A DNA stretch of 64,000 nt from Blumeriella jaapii (Eukaryota; Ascomycota; Leotiomycetes; Helotiales; Drepanopezizaceae), in the NCBI GenBank assembly GCA_009599575.1, contig VWND01000003.1, positions 1,130,001 through 1,194,000 of the forward strand, in the 5' to 3' direction. The notes under the pieces are model-generated. The model did no database searches and had not been told where the DNA came from. It saw nothing but the letters and a program-made list of their open reading frames with translations. Position 1 is the stretch's first letter. Each line of letters opens with the position of its first letter. This document shows, piece after piece, positions 3,567-63,500 of this stretch. The position numbers and the translations under genes are program-made.

Positions 3567-3599
3567 ATTCGCGTTATTAATCGAAATAGCACCGCGAAT
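3567..3599 (+). repeat. 33-bp palindromic insert, protease/RT site, copy A
   Basis: Outer arms ATTCGCG and CGCGAAT enclose a 19-bp core. In the RT frame it reads FALLIEIAPRI. The same 33-bp unit recurs at three other places in this element and in element 3. Confidence 0.8.
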
Positions 3600-5514
3600 A
3601 AAATTGGCTAATATTAACATTTTTAGCTATTAATTCGGAAATAAAAGTTCCGAAGATTTCGTTTTCGTATTAAACAAGCCAGACCCATATATTTTACTTT
3701 TTTGTATTAATATTAATATTTTTTACAAGCGCAAAGCTGATAAAATACGATCCGTGAATTTTAGCGAATCCGATAAAAATATTTTCGAAAAAATAAACGA
3801 TTGATTTAAAAAAAATAAAACAATAAAACTATTTTAATTAATTATTAGCGAGCTCGAAGGATTTATTACCGGCCGCTTTTCCAGCTTATTATTTGGCAGC
3901 CGATTTATAAAAAAACGATTTAATAATTTAGTAATCGGAACTCAATTTTTGCTAAAAAAAAAAAAAATCTTATACGAAATCTTACGCAACCGAGAAAAAG
4001 CTATAACCTTCGATTTCACCGAAATAAGCCAATTTAGCCTCGACGTTACGCTTTATATCGATATTAAAACCGTGCTTTACGAAGCCTGGCAAAAAAAAAC
4101 CTTTTTAATTCTTAAAGCTTTTTAAAATAAAATAGTCGAAATGCTAAAAAAACGAATTAAGCAAAAAATCTTCGAATTCTGCTACGGCCTATACAAAAAC
4201 AAATAATTTATTATTACGAAAAAAAAAAAAAGCATTTACAAATTTATTACCGCGGTCGTCGAAATAAATAAAATAACGATACGAAACGCTAACGTATTAT
4301 TCAACGTCGATCAATTTTCAAACGAATTCGCAGAATTAACGATCGCTTTTCTTTTCGACCTGTTTTCCGGCTACGACCATTTAATATTTAATTCACGATT
4401 TCGAAACATAACGGCAATTTAAATTTCAATCGGTTTATTGCGTATAACGAAAATACTTATAAAAGCCATTAATTTAATCGCTTAATTCGTAAAAATCATG
4501 TACAAAATCTTTATAATTTGCATTTCCGATATTGTTTTGCTTTACGTTAACGACGTCGAAATAAAAAATCTCAAATTATATTATAATAATAAAAAGATTT
4601 TTTCTAAAATTCGACGCTATATAATAAAACATATTTAAAACATCGACAAAATCATAATCTGCTTCGAAAAAGCCAAAGCTATTATTGGTCCTCGATTAAA
4701 ATTTTGCATATCCGAAATAAATATTATCGGTTATATAACTAACAGCGCCGGCCGCTATTTTTAACGAAAAAAAATTAAAAAGATTTGCGAATAAAAAAAA
4801 TGTAAAAATATTACCGAAGCCAAAGCTTTTATTAGCGTTATGATTTACTACCGCAATTAAATCAAAAACTTTTTTCAAAAAGCTGCATCCATTTACGCTA
4901 CGATAAAAAAAAAAGTCGATTTCGTTTGAGAAAAAAAAGCAGAGCAAAACTATAAAAGTTTTTAAAAACGATTTTTTATCGGCCTTATTATTTATGCGGA
5001 TCGATTACAGCCCAAACGCAGAAAAAATTATTTTAATTGTCGACGCTAATATTTTCGGTTAAAAAGCTGTATTGCAATAAATCGATAAAAACAAAAAACG
5101 GCATTTTTCACGATTCGAAAGCGATTTATAATTCTTCGCAAAAACACGTTACGATATTATTAAACGAAAATATCGAGGCGCTTTTAAAATAATAAAAAAA
5201 ATAAAAAACGAATTATACGGCGTATATTTTATTTTAAAAACAAACGCAAAAGTTTTTGTCGATTAATTAAATAAAAAAGCCAATAATTTATTAAAAGCGC
5301 TCGTTATTAATTAAATAGCTTGGATGCGATTTATAAACTTCGAAATCAGGCATATCAAAAAAACAATTAATACAGCGGCAAACGGTTTTTTTAAACGAAA
5401 ACGTTTTTATCCGTTTGATTTCGCTAAATAAAGCGAATAAAATATCGACGAATAAATCGCTAACGAAATCGGCTGCTTCGCTATTTATACTCTGGGTTTT
5501 ACAAAATCAAAACT

Positions 5515-5610
5515 ATTCGCGTTGCTATTTCGGCTAGCATTGCGAATAAAAAATATTAATTCTCGGGCCGAAAAAGCATTCGCGTTATTATTTCGAATAG
5601 CACCGCGAAT
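5515..5610 (+). repeat. Two 33-bp palindromic inserts in the RNase H-integrase linker, copy A
   Basis: Units at 5515-5547 and 5578-5610 start exactly 63 bp (21 codons) apart and read FALLFRLALRI and FALLFRIAPRI. Each can form a hairpin with arms of about 13 nt (ATTCGCGTTGCTA against TAGCAYYGCGAAT) and a 7-nt loop TTTCGGC in the better-kept copies. Confidence 0.82.
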
Positions 5611-8613: not shown

Positions 8614-8615
8614 CT

Positions 8616-9507: not shown

Positions 9508-12500
9508 AATGTTTTTGATTATTAATTCGGAAATAAAAGTTTCGAAAACTTCGTTTTCGTATTAGACAAACCCGATTTATATATTTTATTTTTTTGTATT
9601 AATATTAATATTTTTTATAAGCGCAAAACTAATAAAATACGATTCGTGAATCTTGGCGAATCCGATGGGAATATTTCCGGAAAAATAAACGATTAATTTA
9701 AAAAAAATAAAATAATAAAATTATTATAATTAATTATTAGCGAATTCGAAAGATTTATTATCGGCCGATTTTTTAATTTATTATTTGGCAGCCGATTTAC
9801 AAAAAAACGATTTAATAACTTAGCAATTAAAATTTAATTTCTGTTAAAAAAGAAAAAGGTTTTGTACGAAATTTTACGCAACCGAGAAAAAGTTATAGCT
9901 TTCGATTTCACCGAAATGGGCCAATTTAATTTTAACGTTACGTTTTATATCGATATCAAAACCGTATTTTACGAAATCTGGCAAAAAAAAATCTTTTTAA
10001 TTTCCAAAGCTTTTTAAAATAAAATAATCGAAATATTAAAAAAACGAATTAAGCAAAAGATTTTCGAATTCTGCCACGGTTTATATAAAAATAAATAGTT
10101 TATCGTTGCGAAAAAAAAAAAAGCATTACAAATTTATTATCGCAATCGTCGAAATAAATAAAATAACGATACGAAACGCTAACGTGCTATTTAACGTCGA
10201 TTAATTTTTAAACGAATTCGCAGAATTAACGATCGCTTTTTTTTTCGATTTGTTTTCAGACTACGATTATTTAATATTTAACCTACGATTTCGAAATATA
10301 ACGGCAATTTAAATTTTAATCGGTTTATTACGTATAACGAAAATACTTATGGGAGCTATTAATTCGGTCGCTTAATTCGTGAAAATCGTATATAAAGTTT
10401 TTATAATTTGCATTTTTGATATTGCTTTTTTTTACGTTAACGACGTCGGAATAAAAAGCCTTAAATTATATTATAATAATAAAATTTTTTTTTTTTAAAA
10501 TTCGACGCTATATAATAAAATATATTTAAAATATCGACAAAATTATAATTTGCTTCGAAAAAGCCAAAGCTATTATTGGCCTTCGATTAAAATTTTGCAT
10601 ATCCGAAATAAATATTATTAGCTATATAATTAATAGCGTTGGCCGCTATTTTTAACGAAAGAAAATTAAAAAAATTTGCGAATAAAAAAGATATAAAAAT
10701 ATCACCGAAGCCAAAGCTTTTATTAGCGTTGTGATTTATTATCGTAATTAAATTAAAAACTTTTTTTAGAAAATTATATTAATTTACGCTACGATAAAAA
10801 AAAAAGTCGATTTCGCTTAGGGAAAAAAACAAAACAAAACTATAAAAGTTTTTAAAAACGATTTTTTATCGGTTTTATCGCTTATACGAATCGATTATAG
10901 CTTAGACGCAGAAAAAATTATTTTAATTATCGACGCTAATATTTTCGGTTAAAAAGCTGTATTATAACAAATCGATAAAAACAAAAAACGGCATTTTTTA
11001 CGATTCGAAAGCGGCTTATAATTTCCTGCTAAAATATGCTACGATATTATTAAACGAAAATATCGAAGCGCTTTAAAAGCAATAAAAAAAATAAAAAGCG
11101 AATTGTACGGCGTATATTTTATTTTAAAAATAAACGCGAAAGTTTTTATCGATTAATTAAATAAAAAAGCTAATAATCTACCAAAAGCGCTCGTTATTAA
11201 TTAAATAGCTTAAATGCGATTTATAAACTTCGAAATCAAATATATTAAAAAAATAATTAATATAGCGGCAAACGGCCTTTTCAAACGAAAACGTTTTTAT
11301 CCGTTTGATTTCGCTAAATAAAACGAATAAAATATCGACGAATAAATCGCTAACGAAATCGGCTGTTTCGTTATTTGCGCTTTGGGTTTTATAAAGCCGA
11401 AATTATTCGCGTTGCTATTTCGGCTGGCATCGCGAATAAAAAATATTAATTTTCGGGCCGAAAAAGCATTCGCGTTATTATTTCGGCTGGCATCGCGAAT
11501 AGATTTAATCGAAAACGATCGGAATAAGCCGATTAGCGACGAAAATAAACTTTTAATCGATAATTACAATATCGAAAATTTTTATTTAATCGCATATTAT
11601 TTAATTATTTTATTTAAATTATTTAGCGTATTAAATTATTAATTCAAATTATTTAAAAACCAAGCTTTCGATTATATTTTAGCCGATAAAAAACTATATA
11701 AAATAAAAAATAATATATATCAAAAACGCTTAGTAGTAAATAATAAAGCCGATAAGTTTTAAATTATAAAAAAAGTTTACGAAAAAGTGTTTTATAAAAA
11801 AGCTAAAACCATTTATCACCGAATCAAAAACGACTTTTAATAAAAAAGATATTTCGAAAATTGCAAAGCTTTTATTAAAAACTGCATTTTTTGTTAAAAA
11901 CGAAAATCCGGGCGAAAAAAAAATCTATTATATTCGACGTAGTTTTTTGAAATTTAAAAAAAGATTAATTTCGACGTTATACGCGTACCGATTACCGACC
12001 GCGGGCATACGTGCTTTGTATTCGCTATCGACGATTTATTTAAATAGCTTAAAAAGAAACTTTTTCGAAACGCTATTTTCGAAATTATAACGATTTTTTT
12101 TTAAAAAAACGTTATATATCGATACGGTTTGTTTAGCAAATTAAACGTCGATAATAAATCCGAAAACAAAAGCGTTATCGAAACTTTTATAAAAAAATAC
12201 GATATTTAGCGTATTTAAATTTTAGTTTATAATTCGAAAAGCAACGGATCCGTAGAATAAGATTATAAAAATATTTTTAACGGCTTTTTAAAAGCCATTC
12301 GAAAGGGTTATAAGCGTTGGTTACGGAAATTCTCGAAAATGCTTTTTATTATACGCATATATATATACGCTTTTATTAAAATAATTTTATTTTTTATTTA
12401 ATACGGCAAAAACGCCCGATTATTTATAAAAACAAAATAGTTTGTATAAAAGCTTTATAACGTGATTAAAATAAAAACGAAAGCTGATTTATTAATAATA

Positions 12501-14505: not shown

Positions 14506-14541
14506 TGTGACGATTCACTCTGTTGCCACCTTTCGTATCAT

Positions 14542-14597
14542 CCCAGCAACTACGTATAGCTGCAAGCTCCCCAGCAACTACGTATAGCTGCAAGCTC
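14542..14597 (+). repeat. 28-bp tandem duplication in the element 3 LTR
   Basis: Two identical 28-bp units (14542-14569 and 14570-14597), each holding TACGTA and AGCTGCAAGCT, upstream of the TATA box. The 3' LTR keeps both units with C to T changes (about 20722-20777). An enhancer-like repeat upstream of the promoter is likely. Confidence 0.75.
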
Positions 14598-14637
14598 TCT
14601 GGTCTTCTGGTGGGTCTTCCCATCAACTATAGAAACT

Positions 14638-14653
14638 ATTTATATATATAAGG
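14638..14653 (+). promoter_or_regulatory. TATA box of the element 3 LTR
   Basis: ATTTATATATATAAGG lies about 135 bp into the LTR, after the tandem repeat, and is unchanged in the 3' LTR. It is the likely core promoter for the element RNA. Confidence 0.6.
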
Positions 14654-14802
14654 CTTTTTTTTTTTAGCAACTTCTGCTTTTTGCAATTGTTGATTTTAAA
14701 TAAATATTTTTGTTACAAAATCAAAAGCTCGTTTTTTATATTATATAAATACGGCGACCAGTTGATTGATTTTTTAGCCTTTCGATTAATTAAATCGTTA
14801 TA

Positions 14803-15119
14803 TTATTAATAACTTTTTTTTTACGCTAGCGACGGCGTAAATTATTTTTCTTTTCGAATTTTTTACGGATTATACTAAAATAATCGACCGGTCGTAAAAA
14901 AGCTTATTTCCGCATTTTACGAAAAATAGCTTTTGTTTAACGATTTCTTTTTTAGCAGAGCTTTTCAGCTTCTGCTATTATATTTTAATTTTCCTTTTTT
15001 TAATCAGCGAAAAAGCAGCTTTCCTTAAAAGCTTTTTTTTTTGAAAAACAGTTCTTTCTCCGAGGAAAAAAAAACAAAGGAAAAAGCAGAGCGCTAATTA
15101 TTTCGCTTGCCATTTTTTT
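14803..15119 (+). other. Leader of element 3
   Basis: About 320 bp after the LTR. No clear TGG primer-binding site is left (TTATTAATAAC directly follows), probably because RIP changed it. No gene seen. Confidence 0.5.
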
Positions 15120-16640
15120 TTTGCAGCTTAGCGCTGAGAGCGTTTAATTAAGACTTTTGCAAAATCAATTGAAAAAAGCGCAAAAACGTAAACGATAACT
15201 TTTGGAAATTATACGATTACGACAAACCTTTTAATCAGAACGTTTGATAAAATTTATCGAACGTGCTTTTACTAGTCGCGAATCTGCTGCTTTTTTTCGC
15301 AACGTTTTATTTTAATTAATAAACGCTGCAGATTAATTTCCACGCTTTTTGCGAACTTTTTTTAAATTTTTTTATAACGGCCAAGATTTTAACGCGCTTT
15401 TTAAACGTTATGGTTTTTATTTATTTGCTGACTTTCGACTAGCTCGTATAAAACGCGTTCCGAATCTTAAATTTAAATTAAATAATAATGAAAATTACAA
15501 AGCACGCCATTAAAAAACTAAAGTTTTCGATAACCTCGAATTTTATTACGATTATTTCGCTAACGATCGATTTCGCAAAAATTATATATTCGATTAGACC
15601 GAAAGCGTAATAAAAAAGTTTCTAACCCCGCGTATTTTGAACCGTTCCGATTTTACATTTTCCGAAGAATTAATTAAAAAGGTCGCCGATTTTCTGGCCG
15701 ATTTTTCCGACGTTTAAAAGGCCGAAAACGAATTTAAAATACTTGTAATAAATACGCACGACGATTTTTAGCGATTTTATCTGCGATTTTTTATTTTCGT
15801 AGCGAACGCTTAAATACGAACTGATAAACAGCTTCGAAACGCTTTTCGCGACAAAATACCAAAGCGTTTACGAAAAAAGCTGCATTTAAAATAAGCGCGT
15901 ATAACGATTTTTAAAAATTGGCTTACCGCCGTCCGTTAAAAAAAACAAAGTCAATTAATTAAACGAATTTTATACGCGAATCGCTTTTCAATCAAATTTA
16001 TTATTTATTAAAATAATAGATTTTTAACCAAAGCGTATTACGAATCAAATCGTACGTACGAAAGTCGTTTAAATATTTCACAAGCTTTTTTTCAGCCCTT
16101 TGCTACTTTTCCTTTTTTTTTACGTCAAAACGCTCTTTTTGGCGTTTTTTTTTTTCGATCGGACCAACGACAACGCTCGTTTTTTATTTTATATTAAAAA
16201 GTTTAAAAAAGCTAATTTGCACGATTTTTTACGGGCCGATTCTCGGTTCCATTTAAAAGCTTTTTCAAGCTGGTAAATATAAACGAGGTCGAACCGGCCG
16301 AAGATTCGCTTTTTAATAATAATAATAAAAACGAAAACCCTTTTCCAAACGACTTTCAAAACGCATACGAAAAAGTTAAAAATTCTTCCGCCAGTCGAAA
16401 ACGCCCAGACCTAAGCAAAGCTTTTTTCTTAGGCGTATTGCGCGATATGCGTTATTTTAACGTTCGAAAACTTTTTAATAACGATTTATTAATAATTTCC
16501 GTTATATTTATTAAAAATAGCTTTTCGTACAAAATAAAAGCGCTCGCCGATTTTGAAACGAACGGTTATGCGTTAATCGATTCGGCGCTGATCAAATCCT
16601 TTTTTTTTTTTTTTAAACTTTTGATTTAATTTTTCCCGGT
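15120..16640 (+). pseudogene. gag: gag of element 3
   Basis: Recognised mainly by position between leader and pol and by a gag-like stretch near 15810-15900 with residues TDKQLRNAFRDKIPKRL, similar to the capsid C-terminal region of fungal gypsy Gag. An acidic, Asn-rich part follows near 16310-16400. Frames change several times and many stops are present, so neither the start nor a CCHC knuckle could be placed. Confidence 0.55.
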
Positions 16641-19600
16641 TTTTTTTTTATAAAAGGGTATAATAAAGCTCGTGGCTATTTAATTATATATTTTACGCTT
16701 TTTAATCTTATTATTAATAATCGAATACAATCGTTTACTTTTTTTTTAATTACTAACCTCGGAAATCATGGTATAATTCTAGAAAAAGCTTGGTTGGCCG
16801 AATATTAAATTTTATTAAATTGTAATAAACGCAAGCTTTATTGGCCGAAGTTTTATTTTTTTATAGCTTTTTACGCTCGTTGTATTAAAGTTTTTTATTT
16901 GCATTTCCGAAAAATTTAATTTCGCTATTAAAACGACGCTATAAAACGTAATAAAAACCTTGATTAATTATGGCAGATTTACGACGTTATGCGAAACGCG
17001 AAAAGGTCGAATTTTATTCGCGGTGCTAATTTCGATAGCGACGCTAATAAAATAATATAAGAAATTATACTATTACCTTTCCAGGCTGACGATTCTTTTT
17101 TATTATTTTTTTTTCTTTTTTTTTTTTTTCGTCAGAACAGCTTTCTCGTTTTACGAAAAACAGTTATATTAAAAACCGAAAAAAGGCTTTCGCCGCGATA
17201 GTCTTTTAGTTTAATATAATCGATAGTTCAGACAAGCCACCTTCTGAACTTTTTAAACGACCAATTCGAAAACGAGTTTTTTAACCTACTGCTTATCCAA
17301 TTTTTATTTGTCAGATTATTGCATATGCTTTTAAGCTGATTTTCAGAAAAAAAGCAGTTAAAATGTTTTTAACTTTTTTGTACGAGATCGACAAAATACT
17401 AAACGATTTTACGTATAACACTTTTTTTAAAATTTAATTTTATAGTTTTTTCGAACGTTTCAAAATCAACGAAATATCGATTTCGACTTTTTCAACCAGC
17501 TTAGCAGAGCTAATTTCGAATAAACCTTTTTTCGAATTTTTCCTTCCGGAGTACAAAAACCTCGAATACGTGTTTTTTAAGGCCGCCAGTAACGAACTAG
17601 CTTTTTACCGGCCTTACGATTATAAGATCGAATTTATTATAAATGAAAAAAAGCTGAAATATATTTTTTTATATAAAATATCGATTTCAAAGCTCGAAAT
17701 TATTAAGATTTATTTGCAAAATAATTTTAATAAAAGCTTTATCGAATCTTTTACCGTTTTTTTCGCTGTTCCAGTGTTTTTTGCCAAAAAACCCGACGGT
17801 TTATTACGTTTTTATATCGATTATCGAGCTTTTAATAATATTATTCGTAAAAATCGCTATTTCTTTTTTTTTATCGATAAGATTTTCGTTCGTTTTTCGG
17901 AAATACGAATTTTTACGAAGCTCGATATTCGTCAAGCTTTTTACAAAATTCGAATAAACTCCGCTAATAAAAAATTAACGACGTTTCGTACGCGTTACGG
18001 CGCTTATAAATGCAAGATGCTACTTTTTGGCTTTATTAATAAATTCGCAATTTACCAACGTTATATAAACGACGTTTTTTTCGATTATTTAAACGATTTT
18101 TGCATTGTATATCTGAATAATATTTTTATTTATTCGTCCGACCTTTTGAAACACGCTATATACGTTCGCAAAATGCTTCAAAGGCTCGTTAACGCTGGAT
18201 TACAGGCCGATATTCGGAAATTTAAATTTAACGTTATTCGGATCCGTTACTTAAGCTTTATTATTTTTATTAAAGGCTTAGAAGTAAATTCAGAAAAAGT
18301 CTCCGTGGTCGCTTATTAAAAGCTTTTTATTATTGTAAAAAATATATAAAGCTTTTTTGGTTTTTGTAACTTTTACCGACGTTTTATTCGAAACTACGGT
18401 ATAATTGCAAAGCTTTTGATTTATTTGATTAAAGCTAACGTTTTTTACAATTTTATTTCTGAATATTAGAAAAGTTTCGACTTTTTTATACTAGCTTTTA
18501 CTACTGCATCAGTTCTATAATATTACAGGCAAGATTTTTTTTGTATATTAAAAACTAACGCTTCCGACGGCGTAATAGCTTTTGTGTTTTCGCAATTCTA
18601 TAGTAACGATTAGCTTCCAGTCGCTTATTTTAGCAAAACTATAACTTTCGCAAAGTTAAACTACGTCGTATACGACAAAAAAATGTTCGCAATCGTGAAA
18701 TCTTTAGGCAACTTTCGTATTAAATTAGCTGGCTTAGTTTATTAAATTAAAATAATTATTAATTATAAAGCTTTAGAGTATTTTATAATTTTCAAATTTT
18801 TAAACGCTCGACAAGCATGCTAGGCCGAGCTTTTCGCCGACTACAACTTTTTTATTACGTACAGACCAAATAAACACAATTTTCTGGCTGACGTATTAAT
18901 ACGTCGTACGAGCGAATTCGACCGTAAAATTCTTTTAAACGCATCCAGCGCCTGCAAATCTTTTTTTAAGCAAATCAGATCGATCACCGCTTTTTGATTA
19001 AAAAACTTCGACTTTTCACGGCCTTCGAAACAACTGTTTTTATCGTTGAAATAACTGATTTTTCTTTCGCATTCCGTATCGTTAATCAAATTCTCCACGC
19101 TAATCGTACAGCTAGCAGTCTGATGGCCTTTCGAAAAAAAGCTGTACGAAACGCTACGAAAAGAAACGACGCTAATAATATTTCGTTTTCGTATATATTT
19201 AAACGCGATTTGCTGCTATATTACGGTCGCTTAATAATACCAGACGTCGATTATTTTCGTTTGACTTTTGTACGAAAAATACACGACCAGATTTTTACCG
19301 CTTATTTCAACGCTCGCAAAACTACGCAATTGCTTTCGGACTAATATTATTAGCGAGGTATAACAGCTTTCGTAAAACAATATTATCGCAATTATTATGC
19401 TTATCGAAAAAGTTTTATTTTAAAAAATAAGCGCCCCGGCTTTTTTCAGCTTTTTTCTGTTTTTAACCATTTTTGGAAACACGTTATAATAGATTTTTGC
19501 AGCTTTAACAAAAACAAATACGGTTACGACAACGTATTCGTAATAATAAATCGCTTTTCCAAACAGATTATTTTAATTTTTTGCTATAAAAATATCGACG

Positions 19601-20685
19601 TTCGAAAGCTCGCCAAATTATATATATTTTATATATACAAGTATTTTGGCCTTTTAAAAAGTATTATTAGCGATTATAGTTTTTAGTATTAGTTTACCTT
19701 TTGGTTTAAATTAAATAAAATATTCGGTACGCAATTAAAGCTTTCGATAGCCGCTCACTTTAAAACCGACGGTCAGACCGAAATTTACAACTAATATTTG
19801 CAAAAACGCTTTCGATCTTTCGTAAATTTTTATCAAAACGATTGGAACGAATTTCTTTTAATAATGGATTTCGCTTAAATAATCTTTTTTTACGAAAGTC
19901 TAAATAGTTTTTTATTTTTTGAAATTGTATACGATTATATTCCTTATACTAATTGAAACTAAAAGCTCGATACTTTCTTTTTTCCCAATCTTTTACATAA
20001 GTTAAACGTAAACGAAGCTCGTACGTACGCTCGCCGCCATTACGACGCTTAAAATCTCGCCAAATCGCATTTTTAATAAACTTACGACAAAATAAAAAAA
20101 AGTACGAATAAATTTCGCCGCGCGATCGATTTTAATATTAGCGATTACGTATGGCTCGATATGCGTTTATTTCCGACCTTCCGGCCTTTCCGCAAGCTCG
20201 ACAATCTTATAAACGGCTTTTTTAAAATTATAGCCAAAATTTTCGATAACGCTTTTAAGCTAAACCTTTTTAATATTATAAACGTACATCCAGTTTTTCA
20301 CGCTAATCGACTGCGTAAAGCAGCTGACGACGCGCTTTCAAATCAAATTAACTTAGCTTCTGAATTTATTAATATAACTGATAAGTTTAAATACGAAATC
20401 GAGAAATTAATCGCCTGTCGAATGCAACGGAAAACCTTTTAGTATAAAGCTTTTTGAATAGGCTTAAATAAAAATCTTATATAATACCTCGCGTCTAACT
20501 TTATATACGCTTTTTTAAAAATGCGCGATTTTTATTTGACGCATAAAAAGCTCTCCGGTTCTTTTGCAAAACTTGTAGACTGGCTAAAAGCGTATTCCGA
20601 AAGTTTGAATTCGTACGATTATTTAGATAGTAACGTACCAATGGATAAAAGCTCGAAAGCGCGCTTTTTTCGGACGGAAGGGTAG
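16641..20685 (+). pseudogene. pol: pol of element 3: protease, RT, RNase H, integrase, chromodomain
   Basis: The protease end, near 16760-16860, reads NHGIILEKAWLAEY, the usual gypsy HDIILG-x-W-L pattern. RT is open from 17570 to 18319, with YRPYDYKIEF, KKPDGLLRFYIDYRAFN (about 17790), TKLDIRQAFYKIRI (about 17920) and catalytic YLDD changed to YLNN (about 18110). RNase H is at about 18540-18930, with TNASDG (TDAS-G in the family) and YRPNKHNFLADVL (Y-R-P-G-K-x-N-x2-A-D family pattern). The integrase core is at about 19470-19900: IIDFCSF, IISDYSFQ and a KTDGQTEIYNQYLQ block carrying the catalytic Glu. The C-terminus KLDNLINGFFKI...VHPVFHANRL starts at 20161. A chromodomain-like stretch lies at about 20370-20520. 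The ORF end abuts the 3' LTR. Confidence 0.88.
17016..17048 (+). repeat. 33-bp palindromic insert in element 3
   Basis: ATTCGCG, a 19-bp core and CGCTAAT: the same 33-bp length as the element 1 units. It matches their reverse complement in 24 of the 26 arm positions (13 nt left, 11 of 13 right). It lies between protease and RT. The coding phase here is unclear because frames are broken. Confidence 0.7.
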
Positions 20686-20982
20686 TATAACGATTTATTC
20701 TGTTGCCACCTTTCGTATTACCCCAGCAATTACGTATAGCTGCAAGCTTTTCAGCAACTACGTATAGCTGCAAGCTTCCTGGTCTCCTAATAAATCTTCC
20801 TATCAACTGTGAAAACTATTTATATATATAAGGCTCTTTTCTTTTAGCAACTTCTGCCTTTTGCAGTTGTTAATTCTAAATAATTATTTTTGTTATAGAA
20901 CCAAAGGCTCGTTTTTCATACCATATGAACACGGCGACCAGTTGACTGATCTTCCAGCCCTCCGACTGATTAGATCGTCATA
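20686..20982 (+). repeat. 3' LTR of element 3
   Basis: 297 bp, TATAACGAT (from TGTGACGAT) to ATCGTCATA, preceded by the purine-rich tract GGACGGAAGGGTAG. Here the right half is nearly RIP-free and the left half mutated, the reverse of the 5' LTR. The LTR pair differs almost only by C/T and G/A changes. Confidence 0.95.
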
Positions 20983-23367
20983 TCCGAAACCTTTTTTGTT
21001 TGGAAAAGAAAATCATTTATATCGCTAGCAAAAAAAGCATCGCGAATAAAAACAGCCGGAAATCGACGCCGAGCTATAGGTTTTAAACTAATTAATAAAA
21101 AACGCGACGATTTTATAAAATCAGATTCAGAAAACGCCGGCATTTCGAAAAGGAAAAATTTAAACGATTTTAAATTTGATTTTTCGAAATTGAATACGCA
21201 AATACTAAAAACGCTTGCTGCGTTTAAAAACGTCGTACCGCTAATATTTCAGATTTTAATAAAAGCATTTAAAATTTCGATTATTATACGATTCGACCGA
21301 AAAGGTTTAAAAAGAAATATCGAAGTTATCGCGGAAAAAATCATATAAAAAGTATAAAATCAAATTACTTTGTTTAAAACTTTCGTTTTCGACGACGAAA
21401 CGATTTAAAAATTTTATTTCGATACTTTTATATAAAAATTAAATAAATCCGTCAGCTTTTTTCTTTTTGCTTCGAACGAAAACTAAATCAAGCTTTTTTC
21501 GGAAGATTGCAAATATAATACGTTAAAGCAAATAAAAAAAACTTTTAAAAACGGTGATCCGTTTTTATTCGAGCTTTTTTTCGTTAAAAAACTTCGATTT
21601 TTTAATTTCGTTTTTACGAATAACGTTAACGCCAAAAAAGACGGCAAATTCTGCCATTTTTACGTACGCTGTTACGCGGCGTATTGCGATTTAATTATAA
21701 AAAAAATTAACGTTGTCGGCTTTGCTAATTAATTCGCTGCTATTAAAAATTCGGATTACGACGTGTTCGAAATTGATTTTAATAACCAGTTTATATTCCG
21801 ACGAAAAACTGAAAATTATTTAAGCGCGTGCGAAAGTTTATTTAAGTTACGCAAATTTTAAAATAAATTCTAAAGTTTTTAGCGCGATTATAAAGCTCGA
21901 TTAAAACGTAAAAAAATAAAAGTAACGAATATTTTTAAAAGCCGACTTTTTTGGCTTTTCGACCGAAGGTATATTTTAAAATTTATTCGAATTAAGCTGC
22001 GAATTCGTTAATTACGTAGAGTTTTACAACGGAAAAAACAAGCTATTATTGCATTTTATAAAAAAAAAAGTAGTTATATATAAGCATTATTTCCGACTGG
22101 TTAAAACTTAAAAAACGTTTACAGCTTTTTTCGCCAATATGCTTTACAGTTTTATTTAATAAGCTTTTAAAATATATCCCGGCTTTTACTTCGCTGTTTT
22201 AATTATTCGAAATTTTAAAAACTGCCGTTTCGTAGCATATCCTAACGTTCCGATCGTTTTAAGTTTCGCTGGTCCCGATCGTATTACAATTATAAAATTC
22301 GATATCGCCGATTTTTAAAAAAAAAAAAAAATCGAAGATTTTACCGACGCCATTTTCGATTACCACGTTTTGCTTGCATTCGCATATAATTCGAAAATAA
22401 TCGAAATTTATTTATAATTATATTACGACGCTAAGCTAATTAAAACCATTTAAAAAAGCTTAGCTTTTTCGTATTTCAGCGCGTTTAAAATAATAGCTTC
22501 GGCTATTTTATCGGATTACGAAATCGAAAACTACGAAATAAAAAATAAAATAACTTTTGTTAGCTTTTCGATTAAGCAAAAGGTTTTCGTTAGATTCAGA
22601 ACTTAAAAAACCGACGGCGCAATACTAATTTATTCGAATAATTATACGGCGCAGAAATACAAAAACCATTTCGAAAACGACGTTCCGATAGGCTATTTAA
22701 CGCTATTTGTTTTGCAACGAAAGCAATTATAGCATTTTCGATAGTTTCGATTGCAAACGACTATTTTCGAATTATTTCGTAAAATAATTTTTTTTACAAA
22801 TTTCGAAGCCTTTTCAAAAGCATTCGTCGGTAAACAACCGTGATTCGATCTATTAGTTTTACGCGAAGCAAAAGCGTTAATCGGATTTAATTACGACGAA
22901 TTAATCGATTATTTTAACGATTTTAATACAAAACTTTTTAGCGCTTTTTGCAAAGCGTAAAACCACGTTCAAAAGCTGGAATCTATTATTTACGCAGAAA
23001 AATCGTAAAAAGCATTCGTCGCGGCGATATTTAATAATATTATCGACGAAAAAGCTATTAAAACGTTTCGTAGATTTAAACGATATTTCGATTGATATTT
23101 TATCGAGCCATTTTTTAAAAAAGCAAAGTAAATAAAATAACTTAAACGATAAGCGAAACGCTATTTTTCCGCAGAAGCTAACAGCGAAAAAGCCAAAAAC
23201 GGATTAAAAAACTAAAAAAATATAAAAACTAAAAAGTTCGGTTTTTAAATAATTAGTTTTTAAATCATATAAAATAAATTAAATTGCATTTATTGGAATT
23301 ATGTTTTTTTTTGGTCGTAATTAAAAACGATTACGTATATTATTTGGGACAGAATATAAAACGGTAA
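20983..23367 (+). pseudogene. ORF3 of element 1 copy B, 3' two thirds
   Basis: Continues the frame interrupted at 14505. Recognisable blocks shared with copies C, E, F and G are a palindromic insert, a Lys/Arg-rich stretch (AGNRRR), ITLFKTFVFDDET near 21360, AAYCDLI near 21675, DRITIIKFDIADF near 22280 and a C-terminal DYFNDFNTKLFSAFCKA stretch near 22910. The frame passes the usual RIP stops and ends at a TAA (ancestrally TGA) in the LTR. No known domain recognised. Confidence 0.7.
21015..21047 (+). repeat. 33-bp palindromic insert in ORF3, copy B
   Basis: ATTTATA (RIP form of ATTCGCG), 19-bp core and intact CGCGAAT. Read in the ORF3 frame it ends A-S-R-I, as in the other copies. Confidence 0.75.
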
Positions 23368-37621: not shown

Positions 37622-37717
37622 ATTCGCGTTGCTATTTCGGCTGGCACCGCGAATAAAAAATATTAATTTTCGGGCCGAAAAAGCATTCGCGTTATTATTT
37701 CGGCTAGCATCGCAAAT
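37622..37717 (+). repeat. Two 33-bp palindromic inserts in the integrase linker, copy E
   Basis: Units 37622-37654 and 37685-37717. The first is the cleanest copy of the right arm (GCACCGCGAAT). Confidence 0.82.
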
Positions 37718-42700: not shown

Positions 42701-43103
42701 CCACGTATAAAAGCTAAAATTTATTATTTACGAAAAAAAATCGTAAAAAACCTTTGTCGCCGCGACGCCTAATAATATTATCGACGAAAAAGCTATCAAA
42801 ACGTTCGTAAAACAAAACGATACTTCGACTGATATTTTATCGAGCTATTTTTTAAAAAAGCAAAATAAACAAAATAATTCAAACGACAAGCGAAACGCTA
42901 CCTTTTCGCAGAAGCTAATAGCAAAAAAGCTAAAAACGGGTTAGAAAACCGAAAAAGTATAAAATTAAGAAATTCGGTTTTTAATTAATTGGTTTTTAAA
43001 TCATATAAAATAAACTAGATTGCATTTATTAAAGTTATATTTTTTTTTGGTCGTAATCAAAAACGACTACGTATATTATTTAAAACAGAATATAAAACGG
43101 TAA
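39701..43103 (+). pseudogene. ORF3 of element 1 copy E, complete length
   Basis: About 3.4 kb. Shares all blocks with copy C: FLFDYKRFVKAEFVRKS near 39940, the palindrome at 40750, KFCYFHVRYYAAYCDLI near 41390 (an open, little-mutated part), DRITIIKFDIADF-like near 42020, AYLQLYYDAKLIKTIQKS near 42150 and LIDYLYDFNTKLFSAFCKA near 42640. The tail has NKQNNSNDKRNA and Lys-rich residues. The stop is in the LTR. Comparison of C, E and F would allow a frame-level consensus; product unknown. Confidence 0.7.
40750..40782 (+). repeat. 33-bp palindromic insert in ORF3, copy E
   Basis: ATTCGCG + core + CGCGAAT, reading FASLAKKASRI in the ORF3 frame. Confidence 0.8.
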
Positions 43104-43357
43104 TATTTTATATTAATAAAAATTAATAATTTTAGCTATAATCGAGGCATAGACCCTTTCGAAACCCTTTGCTACTAACTACCTTCAACAGATATAAAAG
43201 CAAAGCACCCTTTTAAATAATACTATAAGCACGCAGTCCAATTCATACCTTTATTTATTTTTCTTTTCCTTTCTGCAGTCTTTTCTAGAAATTCCCTAGA
43301 CTATCTTACCCACCGATATATGGCCGTATCAGTCTGGTTTTCCTACCTACTTTTATA
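43091..43357 (+). repeat. 3' LTR of element 1 copy E
   Basis: TATAAAACGG to CTTTTATA. The part from CGCAGTCCAATTCATACC onward is less mutated than its first half. Confidence 0.92.
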
Positions 43358-45135
43358 ATAAGCTTTTTTATAATTTGAAATTTATCGATTTTATTATTTA
43401 TTATTAAGCGTTTTCGATATATATTATTTTTTATTTTATACAACTTTTTGTCGGCTAAAATATAATCGAAAGCTTGGTTTTTGTATAATTTAAACTAATA
43501 ATTTAGCACGCTAAATAATTTAAACAAAATAATTAAATAATACGCGATTAAATAAAAGTTTTCGGTTTTATAATTATCGATTAAAAATTTATTTTCGTCG
43601 TTAATCGGCTTATGTCGATCGTTTTCGATTAAATTTATTCGCGATACTAGCCGAAATAATAACGCGAATGCTTTTTCGGCCCGAAAATTAATATTTTTTA
43701 TTCGCGGTGCTAGCCGAAATAGCAACGTGAATAATTTCGGCTTTGTGAAATTCAAAGCGCAAATAACGAAGCAGCCGATTTCGTTAATAATTTATTTATT
43801 AATATTTTATTCGTTTTGTTTAACGAAATTAAACGAATAAAAGCGTTTTCGTTTGGAAAAGCCGTTTGCCGTTGTATTCATTGTTTTTTTAATATATTTA
43901 ATTTCGAAATTTTTAAATTTCATTTAAGCTATTTAATTAATAACGAGCGCTTTTAATAAATTATTAGCTTTTTTATTTAATTAATCGATAAAAACTTTTG
44001 CGTTTGTTTTTAAAATAAAATATACGCCGTATAATTCGTTTTTTATTTTTTTTATTGTTTTAAAAACGTTTCGATATTTTCGTTTAATAATATCGTAACG
44101 TATTTTCGCAAAAAATTATAAGCCGCTTTCGAATCGTAAAAAATGCTGTTTTTTATTTTCGTCGATTTGTTATAATACAGCTTTTTAACCGAAAATACTA
44201 GCGTCGATAATTAAAATAATTTTTTTTGCGTTTGGATTATAATCGATTCGCATAAGCGATAAAGCCGATAAAAAGTCGTTTTTAAAAACTTTTATAATTT
44301 TGTTTTGATTTTTTTTCTAAACGAAATCGATTTTTTTTTTATTATAACGTAAATAAATACAGCTTTTTAAAAAAAGTTTTTGATTTAATTACGATAATAA
44401 ATTATAATTTTAATAAAAGCTTTAGCTTCGGTAATATTTTTATATTTTTTTTATTCGCAAATCTTTTTAATTTTTTTTCGTTGAAAATAGCGGCCAGCGC
44501 TGTTAGTTATATAACCGACGATATTTATTTCGGGCATATAAAATTTTAATCGAAGACTAATAATAGCTTTGGCTTTTTCGAAGCAAATTATAATTTTATC
44601 GATGTTTTAAATATGTTTTATTATATAACGTCGAATTTTAAAAAAAAAATTTATTATTATAATATAATTTAAAGCTTTTTATTCCGACGTCGTTAACGTA
44701 AAAAAAAGCAATATCAGAAATGCAAATTATAAAAACCTTATATACGATTTTTACGAATTAAGCGATTAAATTAATAATTTTTATAAGTATTTTAATTATA
44801 CGCAGCAATCCGATTGAAATTTGAATTGTTATTATATTTCGAAATCGTAAATTAAATACTAAATAATCGTAGCCGGAAAACAAATCGAAAAAAAAAGCGA
44901 TCGTTAGTTTTGCAAATTCGTTTAAAATTTAATCGACGTTAAATAACACGTTAGCGTTTCGTATCGTTATTTTATTTATTTCGACGATTGCGATAATAAA
45001 TTTATAAATGCTTTTTTTTTTCGCAACGATAAATTATTTGTTTTTATATAGGCCGTAGCAGAATTCGAAGATTTTTTGCTTAATTCGTTTTTTTAGCATT
45101 TCGATTATTTTATTTTAAATAGCTTTAGAAATTAA
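43358..45135 (-). mobile_element. Element 1 copy D, segment 2 (RT end to integrase start), minus strand
   Basis: Lies between copies E and F. The reverse complement is co-linear with about 4125-5890 of copy A. Confidence 0.9.
43358..45135 (-). pseudogene. pol: RT C-terminal half, RNase H and integrase linker, element 1 copy D
   Basis: On the minus strand: RT YVND near 44695, RNase H with VDASIFG near 44205 and the two-palindrome integrase linker at 43732-43637. The linker reading frame (43755-43495) is open over 86 codons. Both ends are cut by insertions (ATTAA at 45131-45135 is the copy F target). Confidence 0.84.
43637..43732 (-). repeat. Two 33-bp palindromic inserts in the integrase linker, copy D
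   Basis: Units 43637-43669 and 43700-43732, again 63 bp apart. Confidence 0.82.
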
Positions 45136-48749: not shown

Positions 48750-48782
48750 ATTTACGTTATTAATCGAAATGGCACCACGAAT
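48750..48782 (+). repeat. 33-bp palindromic insert, protease/RT site, copy F
   Basis: ATTTACG + core + CACGAAT; reads FTLLIEMAPRM in the RT frame. Confidence 0.78.
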
Positions 48783-50695: not shown

Positions 50696-50791
50696 ATTCG
50701 CGTTATTATTTCGGCTGGCATCGCGAATAAAAAATATTAATTTTCGAGCCGAAAAAACATTCGCGTTATTATTTCGGCTGGCATTGCGAAT
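50696..50791 (+). repeat. Two 33-bp palindromic inserts in the integrase linker, copy F
   Basis: Units 50696-50728 and 50759-50791; reads FALLFRLASRI and FALLFRLALRM. Confidence 0.82.
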
Positions 50792-52778: not shown

Positions 52779-55700
52779 ATATAATATATTTTTCTAATTA
52801 ATAAATCTATCGATATTATATCGTTTTCTAAGCAAAGCGTTGCTAAATCTAATAAATTTATTTTTAATTTATTTTGGAACGGAATTATTATACGCAACTT
52901 TTCCGAATTTAAACAAATATATAATACCGCTATTTTTAATTAACAAGCAGCTTTCGTAAAAACATTTATAAAATAATTCGATATAATAACTGAAAACGTT
53001 AACGAATTTTTATTCGATTACGAAAGTTTCGTTAAAACTGAATTCGTTCGTAAAAGCCTTAATTACGATAAATTTCTATTAAACTACGATAACGTTTTAA
53101 AAGCCTTCGCCGAAGCAAAAAAAACTCGAAATAATAAAAAAAAAATAATAAATCGAATTTTGCGCTTTCTGCTAAATCAATAAGAAAAAAATATTTAAAA
53201 ATACGTTTTTAACAAAATCACCGGTATTATTTTATTTCGGCACTTCGCTCGTCTTTTCGAAACTATTACCCTTATTAAAAAAAAAGTTTGGGTATTAAAC
53301 GCTTATATTTTTAAAACGTAAGCTTTAAAAGCCAATAATCCAAAAGCCCGCAAGTTTATAAATCTTTTTACAACTGTTTGCAAATTAATCGACGACGCTA
53401 TGCAATCGCTAAAAAAAGTTTTAATCGGCTGCGAAACCTTAAATTTGATTTTTTTTTAAACTAAAAATTAAATATTATTAAATATAACATTTTTATATCG
53501 AAAAAAAAAAACGACGCCATTCCGATATTTTAAATTTACGACGACGAAAAAAACGAAAAAATTAATATTATTTTCGTTTAATTCGAAAACATACGCGGTG
53601 ATAATTAATATTTTCAAAGCAGCTAAAACAATTCGGCGATTTTTATTTTTAATTATCGAAAACGAATCCGAGGACGAAATCAAAAGCGTAATAATAAACA
53701 ATCGTTTATTCGAATATAAAAAACTTATTGTATTTATAAAAACGATTCCGGAAAAAATAAAAACAAAAAACGTAAAAAAACGCGCCGATATTTTCGAAAC
53801 TTTTTTTGTTCGAAAAAGAAAACTATTTACGTCGCTAGCAAAAAAGGCACCGCGAGTAAAAACAGCCGGAAATCGACGCCGAATTATAAATTTTAAGCTA
53901 ATTAATAAAAAACGCGACGATTTTACAAAATCAGATTTAAAAAATCTTAGTATTCCGAAAGGAAAAAACTTAAACGACTTTGAATCTGACTTTTCGAAAT
54001 TAAATACGCAAATATTAAAAACGTTTGCTGCGTTTAAAAACGTCGTGCCGCTAATATTTTAGATTTTAATAAAAGCATTTAAAATCTCGACCATTACACG
54101 ACTCGACCGAAAAAGCCTGAAAAAAAACATCGAAATTATTACGAAAAAAATCATACAAAAAGCTTAAAATCAGATTATTTTATTTAAAACTTTCGCTTTC
54201 GACGACGAAACGATTTATAAGTTTTATTTCGATATTTTTATATAAAAATCAAATAAATCCGTCAACTTTTTTTTTTTTGCTTCGAACGAAAACTAAATTA
54301 AGTTTTTTTCGGAAAATTGCAAATATAATACGTTAAAGCAAATAAAAAAAACTTTTGAAAACGGTAATTCGTTTTTATTCGAATTTTCTTTCGCTGAAAA
54401 ACTTCGATTTTTTAATTTCGTTTTTACAAATAACGTTAACGCTAAAAAAAACGGCAAGTTTTGCTATTTTCACGTACGCTATTACGCGGCGTACTGCGAT
54501 TTAATTATAAAAAAAATCGACGTTATCGGCTTTGTTAATCGATTCGCTGCTATTAAAAATTCGAACTACGACGTATTTAAAATTGATTTTAATAACCAAT
54601 TTATATTTCGACGAAAAACTGCGAAAATTATTTAAGCGCATATTAAGATTTATTTGGGCTACGCAAATTTTAAAGCGGATTTTAAAATCTTTAGCGCGAT
54701 TATAAAACTCGATTAAAACGTGGAAAAATGGAAGCAACGAATATTTTCAAAAGCCGACTTTTCTGGCTTTTCGACCGAAGGTATATTTTAGAATTTATTC
54801 GAATTAAATTGCGAATTCGTTAATTACGTAAAGTTTTACAACGGAAAAAACAAGCTATTATTGTATTTTATAAAAAAAAAAATAGTTATATACAAGTACT
54901 ATTTCCGATTAATTAAAACCTAAAAAACGCTTACAGCTTTTTTCGCTAATATATTTTACAATTTTATTTAATAAATTTTCAAAATGCACTCCGGTTTTTA
55001 CTTCGCTATTTTGATTATTCGAAATTTTAAAAACTGCCGTTTCGTAATATATTTTAACGTTTCGATCGCTTTAAATTTCGCTGGTTCCGATCGTATTACG
55101 GTTATAAAATTCGATATCGCCGATTTTTAAAAAAAGAAAAAAATCGAAAATCTTATCGACGCCATTTTCGATTATTACGTTCTGTTTGTATTCGCATACA
55201 ATTCGGAAATAATCGAAGCTTATTTATAATTACATTACGACGCCAAGCTAATTAAAACTATTTAAAAAAGCTTAGTTTTTTTGTATTTCAGCGCGTTTAA
55301 AATAATGGCCTCGGCTATTTTATCGGATTACGAAACTAAAAGCTACGAAATAAAAAATAAAATAATTTTTGTCAGCTTTTCGATTAAGCAAAAGGTTTTC
55401 GTAAAATTCAGAACCTAAAAAACCGACGGCGCAATACTGGTTTATTCGAATAATTATACGGCGCAAAAGTACAAAAACCATTTCGAAAACGACGTTTCGA
55501 TAAGCTATCTGATATTATTTATATTGCGGCGAAAGCAATTATTGCATTTTCGGTGATTTCGATTGCAAACGATTATTTCCGAATTATTCCGTGGAATAGT
55601 TTTTTTTACAAGCTTCGGAGCCTTTTCAAAAGCATTCGTCGGCAAACAACCGTAATCCGACCTATTAGTTTTACGCGAAGCAAAAGCGTTAATCGGTTTT

Positions 55701-56430: not shown

Positions 56431-57071
56431 TTAAAAAGGTTTTTTTTTGCTAAGCTTCGTAAAACACGGTTTTAATATCGATATAAAGCGTAACGTTAAA
56501 GCTAAATTGGCCCATTTTAGTAAAATCGAAAGTTATAGCTTTTTTCCGGTTGCGTAAAACTTCGTATAAAACTTTTTTTTTTTTTTAATAAAAATTGGGT
56601 TCCGATTACTAAGTTATTAAATCGTTTTTTTATAAATCGACTGTCAAATAATAGACTGGAAAATCGGCCGGTAATAAGTTTTTCGAATTCGTTAATAATT
56701 AATTAAAATGGTTTTATTATTTTATTTTTTTCAAATCAATTGTTTATTTTTTCGAAAATATTTTCATCGGATTCGCTAAGATTTACGAATCGTATTTTAT
56801 TAGCTTTGCGCTTGTAAAAAGTGCTAATATTAATACAAAAAAGTAAAATATATAAATCGGATTTGTTTAATACGAAAACGAAATCTTCGGAATTTTTATT
56901 TCCGAATTAATAATTAAAAATATTAATATTAGCCAATTTTATTCGCGATGCTATTTCGATTAGCGACGTAAATGCTTTTAGCCGAATATTTTTCAGGTTT
57001 TGTTATAGCTTAGCGTTTATCCTGAAATCAGAGCCGATTATTCGTTTTTCGATAAAACGTCGATTAAAAAG
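56431..57071 (-). pseudogene. pol: RT N-terminal part, element 1 copy D
   Basis: Minus-strand RT start from the frameshift region to the copy F insertion. Blocks ISEFEKLITGRFSSLLF-like (56700-56650) and TFDFTKMGQFSFNVTLYIDI-like (56530-56460) are co-linear with 3840-4080 of copy A. Confidence 0.8.
56941..56973 (-). repeat. 33-bp palindromic insert, protease/RT site, copy D
   Basis: On the minus strand ATTTACG + core + CGCGAAT; frame offset from the protease identical to copies A, E and F. Confidence 0.78.
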
Positions 57072-59834: not shown

Positions 59835-60320
59835 CTCAAGCTAATACACGTACAGCCATTTTTTTACTACTTTTAATAAGAAGCCGCAAATTGTAGTTGT
59901 TATAATTATAAAGCGTAAAATCAGAAAATTAAGTTTTCGCTAGGCGTTTAATCAAAAAAGATTTAGTTTAAAAAGGCCGAGCCCAGCGGTCGAAGCGTAC
60001 GAACCAATATTCGATTTGTTATTTTTAAATAAAAGAGCGATTTTCGAGTTTTGAATTTCGTACGGTTCAAAATTGCCTAATCGCAATTTTAAACGTTTTT
60101 AAAATATATTGCATTTTTATAATTTAATAATTATGCGCAAAATAAAAGAAGCTATTAAAGATTTTTCATATAATATAGCTGCGAATAATATTATATAAAA
60201 GGTTTCTTAAGCCGTAATAGCGAAATATCGAAATCGATTTTAATTGCGAATTTAAAAAATGCATCGGCGAATATATAAAAACAAAATACCGAAGTTTAAA
60301 TCTCTGCGTAGATTATCAAA
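59835..60320 (-). other. Leader and primer-binding site, copy D
   Basis: Primer-binding site at 60294-60318 on the minus strand (plus-strand end ...GATTATCA). The leader is co-linear with copy A. Confidence 0.6.
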
Positions 60321-60586
60321 TATAAAAATAAGTAGAAAAACCAAACTAATACGGCTATATATCGGTGGATAAAATAATCTAGGGAATTCCTAAAAAAAAC
60401 TAAAGAAAAAAAATAAAAATAAATGAAAATGTGAATTAAACTGCGTGCTTATAATATTATCTAAAGGGGCGCTTTGCTTTTATACCTGTTGAAAATAGTC
60501 AGTGGCAGAGGGTTTCGGAAAGGTCCATGCCTTAATCATAGCTAAAACTACCAACTCCCATCAATACAAAGTATCACCGTTTTATA
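60321..60586 (-). repeat. 5' LTR of element 1 copy D
   Basis: 266 bp in reverse orientation, from TATAAAAATAAG (reverse of the LTR end) to ATCACCGTTTTATA. Relatively little mutated near 60480-60580. Confidence 0.92.
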
Positions 60587-63500
60587 TTAATTAATAAATT
60601 TATCGATATTATATCGTTTTCTAAGCAAAACGTTGCTAAATTTAACAAATTTATTTTTAATTTATTTTAAAACGGAATTATTATACGTAATTTTTCCGAA
60701 TTTAAGCAAGTATATAATACCGCTATTTCAGATTAAGAAGCAGCATTTGTAAAAGTATTTATAAAATAATTTAATATAATAATTAAAAACGTTAACAAAT
60801 TTTTATTCGATTACGAAAGTTTCGTTAAAGCTAAATTCGTTCGCAAAAACTTTAATTACGACAAGTTTCTGCTGAATTACGACAACGCTTTAAAAGCCTT
60901 CGCCGAAGCAAAAAAAGCTCGAAAAAAAAAAAAAAAAATAACAGATCGAGTTTTGCGTTTTTTGCTAAATTAATAAAAAAAAAATATTTAAAAATACGTT
61001 TTTAATAAAATCACCGGTATTATTTCATTTCGGCATTTCGCTCGCTTTTTCGAAACTATTACTTTTACGAAAAAAAAAATCTAAGTACTAAACGCTTATA
61101 TTTTTAAAACGCAAGCTTTAAAAGCTAATAATTTAAAAGCCCGTAAATTTACAAGCTTTTTTACAGCCGTTTGCAAATTGGTCGACGATATTATATAATC
61201 GCTAAAAAGAATTTTGATCGGCTACGAAATCTTAAATTTGACTTTTTTTAAAAATAAAAAACTAAGCGTCGCTAAATACAGCATTTTCGTACCGAAAAAA
61301 AAAACGACGCTATTTCGATATTTTAAATTTACAACGACGAAAAAAACGAAAAAGCTAATATTATTTTCGTTTAATTCGAAAAAATATACGCGGTAGCAAT
61401 TAATATTTTTAAAACAACTAAAATAATTCGGCGATTTTTATTTTTAATTATCGAAAACGAATTCGAAAACGAAACCAAAAGCGTAATAGCAAACAACCGA
61501 TTATTCGAATATAAAAAACTTATTATATTTATAAAAACGATTCCGAAAAAAATTAAAATAAAAAACGCAAAAAAGCGCGCCGATATTTTCGAAACTTTTT
61601 TTATTCGAAAAAAAAAACTATTCGCGTCGCTAGCAAAAAAAGCACCGCGAATAAAAATAGCCGGAAATCGACGCCGAATTATAATTTTTAAGCTAATTAA
61701 TAAAAAACGCGACGATTTTATAAAATCAAATTTAAAAAACTCCGGCATTCCGAAAAAAAAAGATTTAAACGATTTTAAATCTGACTTTTCGAAATTAAAT
61801 ACGCAAATACCGAAAACGCTTGTTGCGTTTAAAAACATCGTATTATTTCCGCTAATATTTTAAATTTTAATAAAAACATTTAAAAACTCGATTATTATAC
61901 GATTCGACCGAAAAAATTTAAAAAGAAATATCGAAATTATCGCGGAAAAAATTACGCAAAAAGCATAAAATCAAATTATTTTATTTAAAATTTTCGTTTT
62001 CGACGATATTACGATTTAAAAGTTTTACTTTTATATTTTTATATAAAAATCAAATAAACCCGTCAGCTTTTTTTTCTTTGCTTCGAACGAAAACTAAATC
62101 AAGCTTTTTTCGAAAGATTACAAATATATTACGTTAAAACAAATAAAAAACTTTTAAAAACAGTAATCCGTTTTTGCTCGAATTTTCCTTCGTTAAAAAA
62201 CTTCGATTTTTTAATTTCGTTTTTACAAATAACGTTAACGATAAAAAAACGGCAAGTTTTGCTATTTTTATATACGCTATTACGCGGCGTATTGCGATTT
62301 AATTACAAAAAAAATCGATATTATCGGCTTTGCTAATCGATTCGCTGTTATTAAAAATTCGGACTACGACGTATTCGAAATTGATTTTAATAATTAATTT
62401 ATATTCCGACGAAAAATTGCGAAAATTATTAAAACGCGTGCTAAAATTTACTTAAGCTACGCAAATTTTAAAATAAATCTTAAAACTTTCAGCGCGATTA
62501 TAAAACTCGACTAAAATAAAATAGAATAAAAATAATAAATATTTTCAAAAGCCGATTTTTTTAGCTTTTCGACCGAAAATTTATTTTAAAATTTATTTAA
62601 ACTAAGCTGCGAATTCGTTAATTACGTAAAGTTTTACAACGGAAAAAACAAATTATTATTGGATTTTATAAAAAAAAAAATAGCTATATATAAATATTAT
62701 TTCCGATTAATTAAAATCCAAAAAGCGCTTATAGTTTTTTTCGTTAATATATTTTATAATTTTATTTAACAAATTTTTAAAATGCACTCCGGCTTTTTTT
62801 TCGCTGTTTTAATTATTCGGAATTTCGGAAACTGCTGCTTCGTAGCATATTTTAATATTCCGATCGTTTTAAATCTCGCTAATTCCGACCGTATTACAAT
62901 TATAAAATTCGATATCGCCGATTTTCAAAAGAAAAAAAAAAATCGAAAACCTTACCGACGCTATTTTCGATTATTACGTTTTGCTTATATTCGTATACAA
63001 TTCGAAAATAATCGAAATTTATTTGCAATTATATTACGACGCCAAGCTGACTAAAACTATTTAAAAAAGCCCAGCTTTTTTGTATTTCAGCGCGTCTAAA
63101 GCAATAGCCTTAGCTATTTCATCGGATTACGAAACCGAAAGCTACGAAGTAAAAAATAAAATAACTTTTATTAGCTTTTCGATTAAGCAAAAGGTTTTCG
63201 TTAAATTTAAAACTTAAAAACCGACGGCGCGATACTAATTTATTCGAATAATTATACGACGCAAAAATACAAAAACCATTTCGAAAACGACGCTTCGATA
63301 AATAATTTAATATTATTTGTACTGCGACGAAAGCAATTATAATACTTTCGGTGATTTCGATTGCAAACGATTACTTTCGAATTATTTCGTAAAATAGTTT
63401 TTTTTATAAGCTTCGGAGCCTTTTCGAAAGCATTCGTCGGTAAATAGCCGTAATCCGACCTATTAGTTTTACGCGAAACAAAAGCGTTAATCGGTTTTAA

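Follow-up and report, generated by a model that had tools for sequence, protein, structure and literature searches.

How did one short palindrome come to lie at several coding positions of two otherwise unrelated retrotransposons, nearly always at the same length? The question is raised by a stretch of 64,000 nucleotides from the genome of the fungus Blumeriella jaapii (contig VWND01000003.1, positions 1,130,001 to 1,194,000 of the forward strand), called the window below, with positions counted from its first letter. The window holds 22 units of this palindrome, one with a decayed arm, in two long terminal repeat (LTR) retrotransposons, element 1 and element 3. An initial annotation had reported the units and read them as a mobile repeat resembling the Rickettsia palindromic elements (RPE). 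The observation itself is confirmed and the interpretation is partly supported: our tentative answer is that a small number of copying events carried a hairpin module from one retrotransposon template to another, that this happened before the two families multiplied, and that the module has since been passively inherited.

Five positions in two retrotransposons

The window was searched for 33-bp palindromes with up to 3 mismatches allowed across the 14 arm bases. The resulting 25 rows comprised 21 units, 12 of them with exact arms, and four unrelated sequences (9231, 11532, 41566 and 50823). A profile search added the 22nd, a full-length unit at 21015-21047 whose 5' arm has decayed. Number, length and coordinates agree with the initial annotation, and the same positions were recovered. 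Element 1 accounts for four: A in the linker of protease and reverse transcriptase (RT), B1 and B2 between RNase H and integrase, and C in open reading frame 3 (ORF3). The fifth, E3, is in element 3. All units examined fall at these five positions. In the reference copy of element 1 they start at 35679 (A), 37622 (B1), 37685 (B2) and 40750 (C), with a B1-B2 spacing of 63 bp. The features are as follows; all units were found by the arm search except where a profile search is named.

32061..43357, plus strand: element 1, reference copy, LTR retrotransposon of approximately 11.3 kb carrying A, B1, B2 and C
14510..20983, plus strand: element 3, LTR retrotransposon of approximately 6.5 kb carrying E3
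3567..3599, plus strand: unit A (protease/RT)
35679..35711, plus strand: unit A
48750..48782, plus strand: unit A
56941..56973, minus strand: unit A, minus-strand copy
5515..5547, plus strand: unit B1 (RNase H/integrase)
5578..5610, plus strand: unit B2, 63 bp after B1
11405..11437, plus strand: unit B1
11468..11500, plus strand: unit B2
24160..24192, plus strand: unit B1
24223..24255, plus strand: unit B2
37622..37654, plus strand: unit B1
37685..37717, plus strand: unit B2
43700..43732, minus strand: unit B1, minus-strand copy
43637..43669, minus strand: unit B2, minus-strand copy
50696..50728, plus strand: unit B1
50759..50791, plus strand: unit B2
21015..21047, plus strand: unit C whose 5' arm has decayed, closely following the element 3 insertion (profile search)
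27251..27283, plus strand: unit C (ORF3)
40750..40782, plus strand: unit C
53825..53857, plus strand: unit C
61620..61652, plus strand: unit C
17016..17048, minus strand: unit E3 (protease/RT of element 3), in inverse orientation to the units of element 1

The unit is shared as DNA

Elements 1 and 3 showed no similarity besides the unit in the comparisons run; the initial annotation had likewise called element 3 unrelated. The unit itself is common to both: scored with a profile built only from element 1 units (A, B1, B2 and C), the E3 unit reaches 21.4 bits, on the reverse strand, compared to a best score of 12.4 in 400 dinucleotide shuffles of element 3. A representative of A (a composite of two observed states) differs from the reversed E3 by one substitution and two single-base gaps.

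B1, B2, C and E3 are in frame inside protein genes. For B1 and B2, the frame in which the unit reads F-A-L-L also contains the RNase H and integrase pieces in five of the six window copies having both; the exception is the 32061-43357 copy, which contains frame-shifting gaps and has its RNase H piece in another frame. The F-A phase around C is free of stops for 124 to 196 codons in all five window copies. At locus L067, the protease, unit and RT of element 3 share one frame, and the unit reads I-R-G-A-N-F-D-S-D-A-N on the coding strand. In the window copy of element 3, changes in T-run length separate the protease frame from the RT frame. Because E3 is inverted and in another phase than B1, B2 and C, both strands of the unit are read, in at least two phases, and the two elements share its DNA and not its peptide. 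This likeness at the DNA level, in two orientations and two phases, therefore excludes a plain peptide explanation for E3, and a peptide motif or cleavage site is ruled out there.

A single reading phase had been assigned to all four element 1 sites. That assignment stands for B1, B2 and C; for A the evidence leans to F-A but does not decide the phase. In 4/4 copies the protease piece is offset by one base from the F-A phase, and the RT core is in that phase in two of the three copies having both, the third containing two single-base gaps between A and RT. Three stops in the protease frame are common to all 12 copies of A compared, including one immediately after the unit; a single stop in the F-A frame is common to all 12, located 11 codons upstream of the unit, and two further stops downstream in all three copies read further. 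A single protease-frame reading for A, B and E3 was dropped after frame checks against RNase H, integrase, RT and L067.

In two of three element 1 copies (window 3100-4500 and 48283-49683), the protease piece and the RT core lie one base apart, as a frameshift between them would give.

Length, form and fold

Exact TTCGCG...CGCGAA pairs up to approximately 85 bp long are of unit length in 35 of 37 cases in the window and loci L005-L038, a sample biased by its choice, since L023-L038 were retrieved because of the pattern and L005 because it includes a listed site. The sole length variant seen is a B1 unit of 31 bp with a loop 2 bp shorter (L035, 1440-1470).

The unit is an imperfect palindrome of 33 bp, possibly 35 bp, in which a short mismatch separates the 7-bp outer stem from a second stem of approximately 4 bp; the loop is variable and has approximately 7 bases. 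The bases flanking the outer stem are unpaired at A and C and partly paired at B1. When one representative per position is aligned over 33 columns (E3 reversed), 19 columns are invariant, nearly all of them in the arms, and the loop is variable. By their arms, B1 and B2 run in the same direction as A and C; the B loop fits A slightly better when inverted, so that the orientation of B is not beyond doubt.

The hairpin with a TTTCGGC loop described in the initial annotation is strong at B1: with one flanking base per side, this copy folds as RNA at -15.1 kcal/mol with a UUUCGGC loop, and 0 of 200 shuffles are as good. RNA fold z-scores are -3.17 for the B1 copy, -2.74 for the A copy and -2.53 for the C copy, with moderate pairing at E3 (-1.35) and weak pairing at B2 (-0.87); the corresponding DNA values range from -1.60 to -2.75. 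No compensatory changes between positions were seen in the alignment, judged by eye.

Another 33-bp near-palindrome, with outer TTCGCR arms, is located near the end of element 4 (window 9231-9263; also L001, 1921-1953) and has 96 sites genome-wide within 3 mismatches. It was excluded as a unit, its inner arms being different despite the same length; it may be distantly related to the unit or resemble it by coincidence.

Distribution in the genome

The genome (47.4 Mb in 91 contigs) contains 1083 sites with exact arms, compared to 0 for a reversed control pattern, and 546 close matches to the element 3 unit. Twenty of these 546 were fetched, all with 0 or 1 mismatch and among the closest matches, and all 20 have one set of flanks. 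Twenty of 20 element 1 loci of approximately 3 kb map to element 1, as do eight of eight further exact-arm sites. On contig C1, 44 of the 53 exact-arm sites listed have a same-strand partner at element 1 spacing; the nine partnerless sites were placed in element 1 by separate comparisons (4 + 5).

Queries aimed at units of other kinds returned mostly known ones. The 16 sites obtained with a query for other cores are all variants of known ones, and a query for other first arm bases gave 11 rows, of which nine were known cores and two belonged to one unrelated palindrome (control, 2). A pyrimidine after the unit, absent from the known positions, follows three of the 1083 exact-arm sites, all three in element 1 (one adjoins an element 3 LTR, at L072); this query is blind to a new unit carrying its own flanking pair. 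Two 3' half units with a pyrimidine two bases on were found, both in GC-rich DNA without similarity to element 1 or 3, and approximately three are estimated by chance if even base use is assumed. The local sample (window and L001-L038) contains no other AT-rich site at up to 1 mismatch per 12 arm bases, the element 4 near-palindrome excepted.

Within the limits of these searches, the unit is restricted to two LTR families: exact-arm and half-unit patterns revealed no unit in host DNA or in another element, and no dispersal through many host genes and intergenic DNA. The initial annotation had named absence from the rest of the genome as an outcome that would speak against its reading, and the result is close to this, with five positions in two LTR families and no empty site at the three positions searched.

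Empty sites and constraint

Joined-flank patterns for C, B2 and E3 match the flanks of nearly all local filled copies (28/29, 14/14 and 21/21, respectively) and detect 0 empty sites at these three positions in this genome; the copies therefore predate the spread of both families. The proposed spread of the unit through the genome is not borne out, given five positions, two LTR families and this lack of empty sites. No clear target duplication is apparent by eye in the flanks, which are A-rich on both sides and offer no empty site to compare. A and B2 have six extra left-flank bases (AAAAGC) and an inner TTATTA in common in most copies, which weakly suggests copying between positions; apart from this, the five positions differ in their flanks.

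Transitions per site in the unit versus its 45-bp flanks are 0.068 versus 0.081 at A (12 distinct copies), 0.063 versus 0.069 at B1 (11), 0.040 versus 0.063 at B2 (12) and 0.056 versus 0.077 at C (22); transversions are rare in both directions. The low substitution figure for E3 is uninformative, as its copies were picked as close matches. The copies are barely more conserved than their flanks, and nothing calls for selection on the unit after its arrival.

Origin of the unit

Reverse transcription is the likeliest stage for the copying because only retroelements were found with the unit. During this process the polymerase can switch template at hairpins, as is established for retroelements. 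We propose that a handful of copying events, at the DNA level, placed the unit in linkers and in one accessory gene of the two LTR retrotransposons. The polymerase would have switched template or primed anew at the hairpin, either on a single template or across two that were co-packaged. Copies would have survived only where they kept the frame and the site was tolerant, and from their arrival onward the units would simply have been inherited as the families multiplied. Both the copying during reverse transcription and the survival of in-frame copies only are inferred.

Several points weigh against this proposal. No copying event in progress was seen, nor any empty site showing the borders of an insertion. 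Template switching usually gives variable junctions, and the length of the unit is constant. The four element 1 units have one polarity, judged by their arms, and three have one phase, which would also fit a functional reason. Other LTR families are thinly sampled, so that the restriction to two families is not proven.

A related but doubtful possibility is that the hairpin is selfish. Confined to LTR retrotransposon genes, it would spread within and between families by template switching, as a parasite of retrotransposons that must stay readable.

We regard as unlikely a Rickettsia-like mobile palindrome, a short element that would itself insert into coding sequence and whose surviving insertions would be E3 and the element 1 copies. 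The fixed length, the hairpin, the multiple of three and the DNA likeness in two orientations and two phases are all consistent with it, and the observed variants average 4.1 open frames out of six, compared to 3.3 in shuffles (one of 21 is open in all six). Only five positions in two LTR families are occupied, however, with no empty sites and, by eye, no clear target duplication, and the unit is 33 bp long compared to 105-146 bp in Rickettsia. The restriction to two LTR families, together with positions fixed before their spread, argues against a palindrome still moving through the genome.

We give no better chance to a functional module at domain borders, a hairpin (RNA or DNA) or a peptide duplicated for its job, such as a pause, packaging or frameshift signal or a cleavage linker. 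Such a module would account for A, B1, B2 and E3 being between enzyme domains, for A being located where the protease and RT frames differ by one base, and for the phase F-A-[LS]-L common to B1, B2 and C. A peptide role nevertheless fails for E3, which is in another phase, and C is in an ORF without a known domain; conservation barely above that of the flanks, weak pairing at B2 and the lack of compensatory changes between positions also tell against a function.

Exchange of DNA between nested or neighbouring copies, by recombination or gene conversion with the hairpin as break point, is improbable. Elements 1 and 3 are nested within one another, an element 3 copy lies directly beside unit A at L072, and A and B2 have the bases noted above in common in most copies, yet more than 33 bp of flank would be expected to travel and the five flanks are otherwise unlike. 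Resemblance by chance, or through CG-rich islands left as an artefact of repeat-induced point mutation, can practically be dismissed: the arms contain few CpA targets of this process and so stay recognisable in decayed copies, but the profile score of 21.4 bits (best of 400 shuffles, 12.4) and the 1083 sites (control, 0) speak against it.

The retrotransposons and their surroundings

The window is AT-rich (GC content 0.21-0.37 in 1-kb steps), and self-comparison shows that nested repeats make up most of it. In a sample of 18 stretches of 10 kb from the genome, six have GC contents of 0.17-0.31 (one partly without bases), 11 of 0.45-0.55, and one is mixed. Differences among copies are mainly C/T and G/A, the pattern that repeat-induced point mutation would leave. 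A sharp-edged patch at 8101-8600, with a GC content of 0.44-0.58 in AT-rich DNA, looks little affected by C-to-T decay; its first part encodes the start of ORF3, with 44.7% identity to a decayed copy.

The LTRs of element 1 are approximately 270 bp in length and 82.9% identical in the self-comparison (32061-32329 versus 43089-43357). A piece of an element 1 copy at 10791-12383 has a Pfam match above the cut-off to the RNase H domain of reverse transcriptases, and a weak one, below the cut-off, to the integrase zinc-binding domain. The protease, RT and integrase core of element 1 are presumed from motifs and were not confirmed by Pfam, which gave no match in its protease-RT piece or in two short RT and integrase pieces. 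ORF3 is downstream of the integrase (window 39800-41600), and a 446-residue piece of it has no Pfam match.

Element 3 is inserted within an element 1 copy and has LTRs of 294 bp (14510-14803 versus 20690-20983, 84.4% in the self-comparison). It encodes a reverse transcriptase at 17438-18316 (PF00078, E 1.1e-15) and a presumed protease, with a weak Pfam match below the cut-off (E 0.028). Element 3 stands beside an element 1 unit in two cases only: a copy lies directly behind unit A at L072 (101-138), and the window copy ends approximately 30 bp before unit C (20983-21047). A further retroelement at L006 (1667-2299) has an RT that shares 32% identity with the element 3 RT across 211 residues; no unit at up to 2 arm mismatches was found in L006.

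Comparison with known systems

One protein search with the RNase H-integrase piece of element 1 gave no homolog at E 0.001, and exact scans of viral_contigs and genome_contigs gave 0 matches. Among the matches listed from open-licence literature, in the portions accessible, no such unit in fungal retrotransposons was found. Proteins rarely gain peptide from in-frame palindromic repeats; such cases are described, in the same portions, from Rickettsia and some mitochondria. If our proposal is true, short hairpins would be able to spread as DNA in coding sequence even though they lack a transposase, and reverse transcription would be indicated as a route for this.

Four known systems invite comparison, each as described in the parts of the sources available. 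Miniature inverted-repeat transposable elements (MITEs) are likewise short, non-coding-like repeats with inverted ends that can add a reading frame to genes. The bacterial MITEs reviewed are approximately 100-200 bp in length, and most of the listed families have target duplications; the unit here is 33 bp long, with no clear duplication by eye. The bypassing elements of Magnusiomyces mitochondria are short palindromic inserts in yeast coding sequence that the ribosome skips (PMC6649704, PMC5009743). In contrast, the length of our unit is a multiple of three, so that skipping is unneeded, and it may be translated. Nematomorph mitochondria have inverted repeats inside coding sequence; these are perfect palindromes of up to 284 bp and are thought to be actively maintained (PMC6649704), whereas here one imperfect unit is common to several positions. 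Both mitochondrial systems are further from the unit than the RPE, which are palindromic hairpin repeats in frame inside protein genes, 105-146 bp in length and present in many host genes and intergenic regions of a bacterium (PMC2229807). The resemblance to RPE noted in the initial annotation extends to form (a hairpin, in frame) and not to length or wide dispersal, the unit being 33 bp long and found at five positions of two retrotransposon families; in form, the RPE are its closest counterpart.

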